From contig JAHWJP010000007.1 in NCBI GenBank assembly GCA_019348355.1, positions 1-47,925 on the forward strand: a DNA stretch of 47,925 nt, in the 5' to 3' direction. Shown in pieces: positions 43,775 to 47,925 of this stretch (the first letter of the stretch is position 1; every line of letters starts with the position of its first letter). The notes below the pieces were generated by a model that did not search any database, was not told the origin of the DNA, and saw only the letters and a program-made list of their open reading frames with translations. Both the position numbers and the translations under genes were made by a program. The stretch is from Actinomycetota bacterium (lineage in GTDB: Bacteria > Actinomycetota > Actinomycetes > Mycobacteriales > SCTD01).

Positions 43775-44176
43775 GTGCAGACGGAGGCAGAGCAGCAGCC
43801 GTGGTGGCGGGACGCCCGCCGGCGCAACCGTGCCGCGCTGGTCACCTTCGCTGTGCTCGCGCTCGGCGGGATCCTGTTCCCGGCGTTCAGCAACTACCTG
43901 TTCGCCGGCGACCGACGGGTCCTGGTCGTGACCCTGGAGCAGGACGCTGGTCAGACCAAGCGCGAGGGTCTCAAGGCGACGTGCGGCACGTTGCCCGGCA
44001 TCTCCGTGGTCGCGGACAAGGGCAATTCTGATCCACGCATCCAGGGCAGGTTCCCGGTCCGTTTCGACATCGCCGGCACCACGACCCAGCAGGAAGCGGC
44101 GCTGCTGCTGTGCTTGAACCAGAACCGGGAGCGGTTCGGGGTGCTGGGCTACCTGCCCGAGAACGACGGAAACTGA
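43775..44176 (+). CDS. Hypothetical membrane protein with one TM segment
   Basis: A 133-residue protein with a short basic N-terminus, one TM segment (ALVTFAVLALGGILFPAF) and an external domain of about 95 residues with two cysteines (KATCGTLPG and LLLCLNQNRE) that could form a disulfide. The C-terminus is FGVLGYLPENDGN. The GTG at 43775 is chosen; other starts upstream lie in antisense of the PH-domain gene. A conserved actinobacterial protein in appearance, but I do not recognise a family. Confidence 0.75.
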   Translation: MQTEAEQQPWWRDARRRNRAALVTFAVLALGGILFPAFSNYLFAGDRRVLVVTLEQDAGQTKREGLKATCGTLPGISVVADKGNSDPRIQGRFPVRFDIAGTTTQQEAALLLCLNQNRERFGVLGYLPENDGN

Positions 44177-44280
44177 CCCGAAGCCTTCGCACCAGCCTCC
44201 CGAGGCGTCGCTCGGTTCAGGTTGGGTACTGCGCGGGATCACACATGGTCACGGGTAGTGCCGACGGTGGGAGCAGGCGC

Positions 44281-47200
44281 GTGGGACTGAGGAAGGCCTT
44301 CCTCGGCTGGCCGGTAATCCAGCAGGTCACCGGCGACGACCCGCTGGGGCGCGGCTCGGCCGCGCAGTCCGCCCGCAGCGCGAGTCTGCGGCCGCGCACC
44401 GCCACGGCCGATCGCGTGGTGCAGAGCATCTGCCCGTACTGCGCCGTCGGCTGTGGCCAGAAGGTGTTCGTGAAGGACGACAAGGTGGTGCAGATCGAGG
44501 GAGACCCCGACTCCCCGGTCTCCCGGGGACGCCTGTGCCCGAAGGGCAGCGCGAGCGAGCAGTTCGTCAACGGCCCGCGGCGGGTCACGACCGTCCGCTA
44601 CCGGCGTCCGCACGGCACCGCGTGGGAGGACCTCCCACTCGAACGCGCCATGGACATGATCGTCGACCGGATGCTCGACACCCGCGAGCGCACCTGGCAG
44701 GAGCGCGACGACAAGGGCCGCCGGGTGAACCGCACCCTGGGTTTCGCCTCCCTCGGCGGGGCGACGCTCGACAACGAGGAGAACTACCTCATCAAGAAGC
44801 TGTTCACGGCGCTGGGCGCGATCCAGGTCGAGAACCAGGCGCGGATATGACACAGCGCCACCGTCCCCAGTCTGGGGGCCTCGTTCGGACGCGGCGGAGC
44901 CACGTCCTTCCTGCAGGACCTGGCCAACTCCGACTGCATCGTCATCCAGGGCTCGAACATGGCCGAGTGCCACCCGGTGGGCTTCCAGTGGGTGATGGAG
45001 GCCAAGCAGCGCGGCGCCAAGGTCATCCACATCGACCCGCGCTTCACCCGCACCTCGGCGGTCGCTGACCAGCACGTCCCTATCCGGGTCGGTTCCGACA
45101 TCGCCTTCCTCGGCGGCGTCGTCAACTACATCCTGACCAACGAGAAGGACTTCCGGGAGTACGTCGTCGCCTACACCAACGCGGCCACCCTCCTGCGCGA
45201 GGACTTCGTCGACACCGAGGACGCGGGCGGGCTGTTCTCCGGCTACGACGAGGCCAGCGCGTCCTACGACGGCGAGTCGTGGGGCTACGCAGGACACCAG
45301 CAGGAAGCCGGCGCCAGCGGAGACGACGAGGAGCTCGCGGCCGAACGCAACAGCGGACACGAGCTCGGCGGTCGTGGTGCGACCCTCGGGCACTCGAGGG
45401 TCGAACGCGACGAGACGCTGCAGCACCCGCGCTGCGTCTACCAGGTGCTCAAACGCCATTACGCCCGCTACACCCCCGAGATGGTCGAGCAGGTCTGCGG
45501 GATCCCGCCCGAGCAGTTCCTCGCCGTCTGCGAGGCGGTCACCGCCAACAGCGGCCGCGAGCGCACCACCTGCTGGGTCTACTCGGTCGGCTGGACGCAC
45601 CACTCGACCGGCGTGCAGTACATCCGCGGCTCGGCGATCATCCAGCTGCTGCTGGGGAACATGGGCCGGCCGGGCGGCGGCATCCTGGCGCTGCGCGGGC
45701 ACGCGAGCATCCAGGGCTCGACCGACATCCCGACGCTGTTCAACCTGCTGCCCGGCTACCTGCCGATGCCGGTGGCGGGGGAGCACGACACCCTCGCGGA
45801 CTACGTCGCGACCATCGGCAGCGCTGGCATGAAGGGCTTCTGGACAAAGGCTGACGCCTACACCGTCAGCTTGCTCAAGGCGTGGTACGGCGAGGCCGCC
45901 TCGCCCGAGAACGACTTCTGCTTCGATCGGCTCCCGAAGCTGACCGGCGACCACGGGACGTACCAGACCGTGCTGGACCAGATCGACGGCAAGGGTGAGG
46001 GCTATTTCCTCGTCGGCCAGAACCCGGCCGTGGGTTCTGCGCAGGCCAAGCTGCAGCGGCAGGGGCTGGCCAGTCTGAAATGGCTTGTCGTCCGGGACGT
46101 CAACCTCATCGAGTCGGCGACCTTCTGGAAGGACGGCCCGGAGATCGCCACCGCTGAGATGGTGACCGAGGACATCGGCACCGAGGTGTTCTTCCTGCCG
46201 GCGGCCACCCATGTCGAGAAGGCCGGCTCCTTCACCCAGACCCAGCGGATGGTCCAGTGGCGCCACAAGGCGGTGGAACCGCCGGGGGACGCCCACAGCG
46301 AGCTCGACTTCTTCTTCCATCTTGGTCGCCTGCTGCGCGAGCGGCTCGCCGGGTCGACCGATCCCAAGGACCGGGCGCTGCTCGACCTCACCTGGGACTA
46401 CCCCGTGGATTCCCGCGGCGAGCCCGACCCGGTGTCGGTGCTGGCCGAGATCAATGGCTCCTTCCTGACCGGCGACCGGGCCGGAGAGCCGCTGCCCGGC
46501 TTCACGTCGATGCAGGCCGACGGCTCGACCTCGGGCGGCTGCTGGATCTACACCGGCATCTACGCCGGCGGCGTCAACCAGGCGGCCCGTCGCAGGCCTG
46601 GACGGGAGCAGAACTGGGTGGCGAGCGAGTGGGGGTGGGCGTGGCCGATGGACCGGCGCACGCTCTACAACCGCGCGTCCGCAGACCCCGAAGGCCGGCC
46701 GTGGAGCGAGCGGAAGGCCTACGTCTGGTGGGACGAGGGCGAGCAGAGGTGGACCGGCCACGACGTGCCCGACTTCGAGGTGACCAAGCCGCCGTCCTAC
46801 CGACCGCCGGAGGGCGCCAGCGGTCCGCAGGGGCTGGCCGGTGACGACCCGTTCATCATGCAGGCAGATGGAAAGGGCTGGCTGTACGCGCCTTCCGGCC
46901 TGCTCGACGGGCCGATGCCGGCGCATTACGAGCCGCATGAGTCGCCCGTACGCAACCCGCTCTACCACCAGCAGGGCAACCCGACCCGCCAGGTCTACCG
47001 GCGCAAGGACAACCTGTCGAACCCCTCGGCGGGCGAGCCGGGAGTCGAGGTGTTCCCCTACGTCTTCACGACCTACCGACTCACCGAGCACCACACCGCC
47101 GGCGGCATGAGCCGGTGGGTGCCCTACCTCGCCGAGCTGCAGCCGGAGATGTTCTGCGAGGTCTCACCGGAGCTGGCCGGCGAGCGCGGGCTCGAGCATC

Positions 47201-47550
47201 TGTCGTACGCCACGATCGTCACCGCACGCACGGCGATCGAGGCGCGGGTGCTCGTCACCGAGCGGATGACGCCGCTTCACGTCGACGGGCACGTCATCCA
47301 CCAGGTCGGCCTGCCCTATCACTGGGGTGTCGGCAACGAGGCGCTCGTGAGCGGTGACTCGGCCAACGACCTGCTCGGTCTCGCACTCGATCCGAACGTG
47401 CACATCCAGGAGAGCAAGGTCGGCAGCTGCGACATCCAGCCAGGTCGGCGCCCGACCGGCCCGGCGTTGCTGCGCTACGTCGAGGAATACCGCAGCCGGG
47501 CCGGGATCACCGTCGACACCGGCAACACCCAGCGCACGGAGGGCCGATGA
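44281..47550 (+). CDS. Formate dehydrogenase alpha subunit, selenocysteine-containing
   Basis: A molybdopterin enzyme of about 1,089 residues related to FdnG/FdoG that oxidises formate to CO2. N-terminal [4Fe-4S] motif ICPYCAVGCGQKV, GRLCPKGSA, then the Mo-ligand position encoded by in-frame TGA (44848-44850, residue 190): the context ARI-U-HSATVPSLGASFGRGG matches the selenocysteine site of FdnG (ARVUHGPTVA..). Downstream HPVGFQWVMEAK and the rest of the family follow in the same frame to 47550. GTG at 44281 (VGLRKAFLGWPVIQQVTG) is preferred; ATG at 44245 is an alternative. Without recoding, the gene would appear as two ORFs. Selenocysteine machinery (selABCD) must be elsewhere. Confidence 0.93.
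44851..44885 (+). promoter_or_regulatory. Candidate bacterial SECIS element
   Basis: Just after the UGA the mRNA can fold GUCCCCA (44863-44869) with UGGGGGC (44873-44879), leaving a three-base loop GUC. The loop starts 20 bases after the UGA and contains the GU expected of SelB-binding loops. A U-G wobble sits near the base. Placement agrees with known bacterial SECIS elements of formate dehydrogenases. Confidence 0.6.
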
Positions 47551-47925
47551 CCAACAGCCTGTACGGGCCGCTCGACCCGGCGCCCGACGCTGGCTGGACC
47601 GATGGTCAGCCGCGCAAGGGGTTCTTCACCGACACCTCCATCTGCATCGGCTGCAAGGCCTGCGAGGTGGCGTGCAAGGAGTGGAACGCCGTGCCGGAGG
47701 AGGGCCTGCTCATGCTCGGCAGCTCCTACGACAACAGCGGGTCGCTGGGTGCGAGCACCTGGCGGCAGGTGAAGTTCATCGAGCAGCCGGTCACCGCCGA
47801 CGCACCGGTCGATCTCGGGATGCCCACGGCGACACTGCCGGGACTTTCCGACGGCGGCCAGCGCACCGAGTTCCGCTGGTTGATGGAGTCCGACGTCTGC
47901 AAGCACTGCACCCACGCCGCGTGCC
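47547..47925 (+). CDS. Formate dehydrogenase Fe-S (beta) subunit, 5' part
   Basis: The first 126 codons of a 4Fe-4S dicluster electron-transfer subunit (FdnH/HybA type) are present; it runs off the window. The first ferredoxin motif reads ICIGCKACEVACKEWN, and the second begins at SDVCKHCTHAAC at the edge. It receives electrons from the alpha subunit. The ATG overlaps the alpha-subunit stop by four bases. An insertion of about 45 residues between the two motifs matches my memory of actinobacterial members. Confidence 0.93.
   Translation, partial: MTNSLYGPLDPAPDAGWTDGQPRKGFFTDTSICIGCKACEVACKEWNAVPEEGLLMLGSSYDNSGSLGASTWRQVKFIEQPVTADAPVDLGMPTATLPGLSDGGQRTEFRWLMESDVCKHCTHAAC

Follow-up and report, generated by a model that had tools for sequence, protein, structure and literature searches.

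The DNA analysed here, a window of 47,925 nt that is the whole of contig C131 in a draft genome of 2.97 Mb (259 contigs, 88% complete), encodes what we take, with a probability of roughly 0.96, to be the alpha subunit of a Mo- or W-dependent respiratory formate dehydrogenase (FDH), in which selenocysteine, inserted at UGA 44848, is the ligand of the metal. That this codon of an FdnG-type enzyme is very probably read as selenocysteine is supported by the protein family, the site of the codon, a SECIS-like hairpin and the selenocysteine machinery of the genome. The features of the locus are as follows:

44281..47550, + strand: formate dehydrogenase alpha subunit (FdnG type), UGA very probably read as selenocysteine (start GTG 44281 or ATG 44245); NF041513, TIGR01553, PDB 1h0h/1kqf, one in-frame TGA
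44413..44571, + strand: Molybdop_Fe4S4 domain with CPYCAVGC motif (residues 51-58); PF04879, 71 bits, residues 45-97
44848..44850, + strand: TGA, probable selenocysteine codon (U190 in the frame from 44281), then the His of the U-H pair; X of 1h0h_A/1kqf_A, recurrence in homologous loci
44863..44879, + strand: SECIS-like hairpin, stem 44863-44868 with 44874-44879, loop AGUCU 44869-44873; pair counts, covariation, fold, bSECIS constraints
47062..47415, + strand: Molydop_binding (molybdopterin dinucleotide binding) domain; PF01568, 37.7 bits, residues 928-1045
47547..47925, + strand: start of the iron-sulphur (beta, FdxH-like) subunit gene, cut by the contig end; TIGR01582 FDH-beta

A single reading frame with one internal stop

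Across 44110-47549 the frame holds a single stop, TGA 44848-44850, and it terminates with TGA 47548-47550. Third-position GC is 0.925 upstream of the internal TGA, 0.923 downstream and 0.917 in the 36 codons from the TGA to the next ATG (GC content of the window, 71.6%); since these values are alike before, after and between, we judge the frame to be coding throughout. No lesion-like feature besides TGA 44848-44850 was found in the FDH frame. The first-pass annotation had described one FdnG-like protein split by this TGA alone, and the single stop, with both halves in the same frame, bears this out. It had also anticipated that gene calling would give a short first ORF and a second from 44959; mechanical ORF calling does yield 44110-44850 and 44959-47550, and automatic annotation would likewise split this UGA-selenocysteine FDH in two. 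Of its proposed span, 44281-47550, the terminal stop confirms the end, and there is doubt about the start, for which the frame offers both GTG 44281 and ATG 44245 in a stretch that varies among relatives. The beta subunit gene overlaps the FDH stop (ATGA), and its first 126 aa have TIGR01582 FDH-beta as their best NCBIfam match, at 49.4 bits against a whole-protein cut-off of 334.7, a low score that is expected because the contig end truncates the gene.

Protein family and probable selenocysteine site

Read through the UGA, the protein matches NCBIfam NF041513 (formate_DH_Act) with 1951 bits (cut-off 1400) over positions 3-1067 of the 1067 in the profile, the two halves matching in order, so that the homology claimed for both sides of the TGA extends over nearly the whole profile in one frame. 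It also matches TIGR01553 (949.8 bits; cut-off 814.2), and Pfam recognizes Fe4S4, molybdopterin and dinucleotide-binding domains. The best matches among solved structures are 1h0h_A and 1kqf_A: the TGA residue, aligned as U, falls on the X of QARIXHSATV and QARVXHGPTV, respectively, which we take to be selenocysteine, in agreement with the earlier placing of the UGA at the Mo-ligand residue. Here, the context is ARI-U-HSAT, with the His after the UGA at the metal-ligand position. The motif given for the FdhA family (TIGR01553) in Table 1 of a 2026 review, UHxP (PMC13188914), is absent, the sequence reading UHSA; we consider UHxP to be a descriptive rather than a defining motif, and UHSA does not exclude membership of FdhA, because 1h0h_A likewise reads XHSA and the TIGR01553 cut-off is passed.

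Readthrough, metal ligation, activity and electron transfer are predicted from sequence. A ribosome at UGA 44848 would encounter the hairpin 18 nt downstream; SelB, charged with Sec-tRNA (anticodon UCA), would bind this hairpin and insert selenocysteine; and translation would continue to 47550, the beta subunit gene following directly after. The selenocysteine would then act as the metal (Mo or W) ligand of a respiratory FDH.

This genome carries part of a further enzyme of the kind (L232:5-1651; G000:C180), the C-terminal half of a second NF041513 FDH whose Sec site lies beyond the contig end; it is followed by beta and probable membrane subunit genes.

Recurrence of the stop codon in relatives

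We examined 110 homologous loci, comprising 30 fetched out of a larger number of places above cut-off and, from a second scan with at least 597 matching stretches, the best 80, some genomes probably being present in both sets; one locus (L144) was unreadable by the pattern, leaving 109. A stop occupies the Sec codon in 108 of these 109, same-genus genomes included (102 TGA and 6 TAG), and the remaining locus has TGC. Organisms among the matches listed include Mycobacterium, Arthrobacter, Micromonospora, Nocardioides and Modestobacter. Three of the six TAG loci are from Modestobacter, and the other three are from relatives whose tRNA-Sec has a CTA anticodon, a combination that fits the published recoding of UAG to selenocysteine in FDH of the Geodermatophilaceae (PMC5330540).

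Cys versions of the enzyme are found within the order in G030 (TGC) and G028 (Cys; L230, G028:C223), neither being from the same family. The former is without selA and tRNA-Sec, and the latter retains both, presumably for another selenoprotein. Two loci carry an additional stop: in L229 (G006:C295), a UGA FDH, a TAG shortly precedes the Sec codon and the conserved His after that codon is replaced by Leu, suggesting decay or an assembly error, and in the FDH of Micromonospora andamanensis (L174:919) another stop is in frame eight codons before the Sec codon.

The SECIS-like hairpin

The hairpin lies 18 nt after the UGA and has a 6 bp stem and a 5-nt loop with G as its second base; the minimum free energy (MFE) for the 40 nt of 44848-44887 is -11.8 kcal/mol. 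These values fall within all of the bSECIS constraints listed in section 5 of the same review (PMC13188914), namely, a loop of 3-9 nt, a stem of 4-16 bp, G in the first two loop positions, a spacing of 16-37 nt and an MFE of -7.5 kcal/mol or lower. Conservation was assessed on 55 distinct 40-nt sequences from the 108 loci with a stop. With the 6-bp stem and 5-nt loop, 99.7% of the 330 cells are paired, and one stem pair has changed on both sides in 22 cells; neither the covariation score nor the percentage paired was reached by any of 500 shuffles, whereas the counts of double-change pairs and of pair types are unremarkable (reached by 257 and 81 of the 500, respectively). These statistics ignore relatedness, as do those for co-occurrence below, Fisher values included. 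The co-varying pair links the third base of a Val codon to that of a Gly codon and is paired in 55 of 55 sequences (shuffled mean, 40.7), and the T of the loop, at another third codon position, is unchanged in all 108 stop-bearing loci.

The folding energy is ordinary for the composition, with z-scores of -0.19 for 40 nt (matched or bettered by 85 of 200 shuffles) and +0.96 for 54 nt, and the Cys homologue of G030, in which the stem pairs are broken, folds better (z -3.77), into another hairpin. Energy was therefore dropped as evidence for a SECIS element, for which we rely instead on the site, the pairing and the covariation. A covariance model made of these 40 nt has a single site in this genome, 44848-44887, and matches in 40 of 61 genomes, namely, all 39 that have an in-frame-stop FDH plus a weak match in G053 (E 0.005), with no site in either Cys-FDH genome (G030 and G028); as many of these sites went into building the model, this is a measure of specificity and not of independence. 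The element adds a record of covariation at synonymous sites in an actinobacterial SECIS and leaves the understanding of selenoproteins unchanged.

Selenocysteine machinery in the genome

Contig C60 ends in the tRNA-Sec gene (selC; C60:7376-7461), whose anticodon is UCA (read as TCA); truncated by the contig end, the gene scores 50-55 bits, above the gathering score, where complete ones in relatives score 64-81. It is one of 12 matches to the tRNA-Sec model in this genome; of the eight inspected, seven overlap ordinary tRNAs according to ARAGORN and were rejected (L002-L008: Cys, Ser, Gly, Ser, Trp, Ser and Gly, respectively). An uninterrupted selB occupies C224:2305-3312 (252.7 bits; cut-off 242.25), at the end of its contig and open to its ATG a few bases from that end. 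A selD-type gene on C156, read through a UGA of its own, scores 365.9 bits against a cut-off of 125 and has no other stop. The profile search of this 88% complete draft gave no match to selA at E 0.001 or better. The first-pass annotation had held that the genome must encode SelA, SelB, SelD and tRNA-Sec: the presence of selC, selB and the selD-type gene excludes the absence of all sel genes that it had named as contrary evidence, and SelA is the part of its expectation that was not found.

The likely whereabouts of selA are indicated by G008, a genome of the same genus in about 10 contigs, in which flavin reductase is followed by selC, by further genes that include a transporter, and then by selA, selB, alcohol dehydrogenase and metallo-hydrolase (the names of the non-sel genes are our assignments from their sequences). 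Here, C60 ends after flavin reductase and selC, and C224 begins with selB and alcohol dehydrogenase. As both contig ends fall where G008 carries selA, the gene most simply sits in the unassembled gap between them, as judged from this synteny.

Co-occurrence across 61 genomes

For the co-occurrence counts, selB and selA were accepted only above curated cut-offs, by which selB misses G055, G044 and G012. Ten tRNA-Sec matches of 48.5-51.5 bits were left out as probable tRNA-Ser, one of which was read (L226, anticodon TGA); the 49.8-bit match of the present genome was retained, given that the contig end truncates it and that it is identical to the one of G008 at 84 of 87 bases (counted by eye). 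An in-frame-stop FDH of this family is present in 39 of the 61 genomes (37 above cut-off and two truncated), of which 36 have tRNA-Sec, 34 selA and 31 selB above cut-off; at least one of the three occurs in 38, the exception being G016. With relatedness ignored, tRNA-Sec is thus found in 36 of 39 genomes with a stop-bearing FDH versus 8 of the 22 others. Among 34 relatives with tabulated positions for both, the FDH and tRNA-Sec genes are within 18 kb on one contig in 18, far apart on one contig in 2 and on different contigs in 14.

G016 has two UGA FDHs and a Cys selD (L028 and L231 in G016:C52, and G016:C75); although this genome is 98% complete, the searches gave no selA, no tRNA-Sec and no selB above cut-off. 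Besides G028, seven genomes have tRNA-Sec and selA without an in-frame-stop FDH of this family (G005, G011, G012, G013, G033, G052 and G054); some of these are incomplete, and others probably have different selenoproteins.

Alternative explanations

The existence of Cys versions in the order, together with the draft state of the assembly, gives some footing to the idea that the TGA arose by sequencing error, or by recent nonsense mutation, from the TGC or TGT of a Cys-type FDH. Such an accident would hardly recur at the same codon in nearly every readable locus, those of the same genus among them; moreover, the hairpin is intact here and has its stem pairs broken in the Cys copy of G030, and the genome has both tRNA-Sec and selB. 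The first-pass annotation had itself named Cys in close relatives, combined with other lesions in this copy, as evidence against selenocysteine; the Cys versions in the order, those of G030 and G028, are both from outside the family, and no second lesion is seen in this copy. We consider error or mutation to be very improbable.

The missing selA match raises a different prospect, that of a real UGA gene whose decoding has been lost, leaving a selenoprotein gene in decay. Against this, selB and selC both lie at contig ends, and G008 has selA between the same neighbours; no interruption is seen in selB, and the only stop within the selD-type gene is its one UGA. The chance of such a loss seems equally slight, and we retain the reading of UGA 44848 as selenocysteine in a functional gene.

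Comparison with known systems

The nearest published parallel is fdnG of Corynebacterium aurimucosum, which, in a 2010 report (PMC2830990), has an internal UGA and is clustered with fdxH and selABCD. The present locus shares with it the in-frame UGA, the adjoining beta gene and the presence of Sec machinery in the genome, but its sel genes are on other contigs of a broken assembly. As in E. coli FdnG (PDB 1kqf) and the 1h0h FDH, Sec is followed by His at the metal site, and Fe4S4 and molybdopterin domains are present; in contrast to these enzymes, there is no clear twin-arginine signal, and residues 339-373 are unaligned to either structure. The UAG-decoding FDH of the Geodermatophilaceae (PMC5330540) belongs to the same FDH family and has the hairpin, whereas UGA and a UCA anticodon are used here.

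FdhA is given as the most widely distributed bacterial selenoprotein family in PMC13188914, and 103 FdhA selenoproteins had been counted by 2006 (PMC1794560). The FDH is one more case of an already known type of selenoprotein gene: the earlier proposal that it was a notable UGA-Sec enzyme was correct as a reading, but its claim to notability is weakly supported, such genes having been published before and being frequent in the order.

A UGA-containing selD-type gene beside selenoneine genes

The selD-type gene is the sole part of the system that may merit a separate look. The relevant features, on contig C156 of this genome (G000), are:

L021:7354-8460 (G000:C156), - strand: selD-type gene with its own in-frame TGA; profile match read through the UGA
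L021:8234-10747 (G000:C156), + strand: senA and senB; senA 474.6 bits (cut-off 420), senB 369 bits (cut-off 300)

The senA/senB pair adjoins the selD-type gene and is divergent from it, an arrangement repeated in G002. The TGA stands at the position of a Cys in the canonical SelD of relatives (SHGAG-U-ACKL versus GGGCACKI), and the hairpin-like GGCGCAGGUCCUGCGCC lies downstream (pairing judged by eye). Among 45 genomes with a SelD match, a TGA within SelD is confined to this genome and G002. In the former the UGA gene is the only SelD detected, and in the latter (97% complete) only the UGA SelD was found, with none between its FDH and selC, where G008 carries a Cys one. Matches to senA at other SelD loci were dismissed as artefacts, because the first part of the query is antisense to selD; true senA and senB occur only at L248 (this genome) and L244 (G002).

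As senA and senB adjoin it, the selD-type gene may serve selenoneine synthesis (as SenC), selenocysteine synthesis, or both. No UGA-containing SenC is described in the titles and abstract openings found, and the term UGA is absent from the available part of the SenC paper PMC11929427.

In a search of 296 genomes of the phylum, the nearest relatives of the selD-type gene lie outside its class, are up to 73% identical and mostly have the TGA; identity to the four same-order genomes with a match among those 296 is 51-53%. It is conceivable, at somewhat worse than even odds, that part of the genus has acquired a UGA selenophosphate synthetase beside senA/senB, which provides selenophosphate for selenoproteins, and perhaps for selenoneine, in place of the Cys SelD encoded in the sel cluster. 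The selenocysteine pathway would then depend on its own product.
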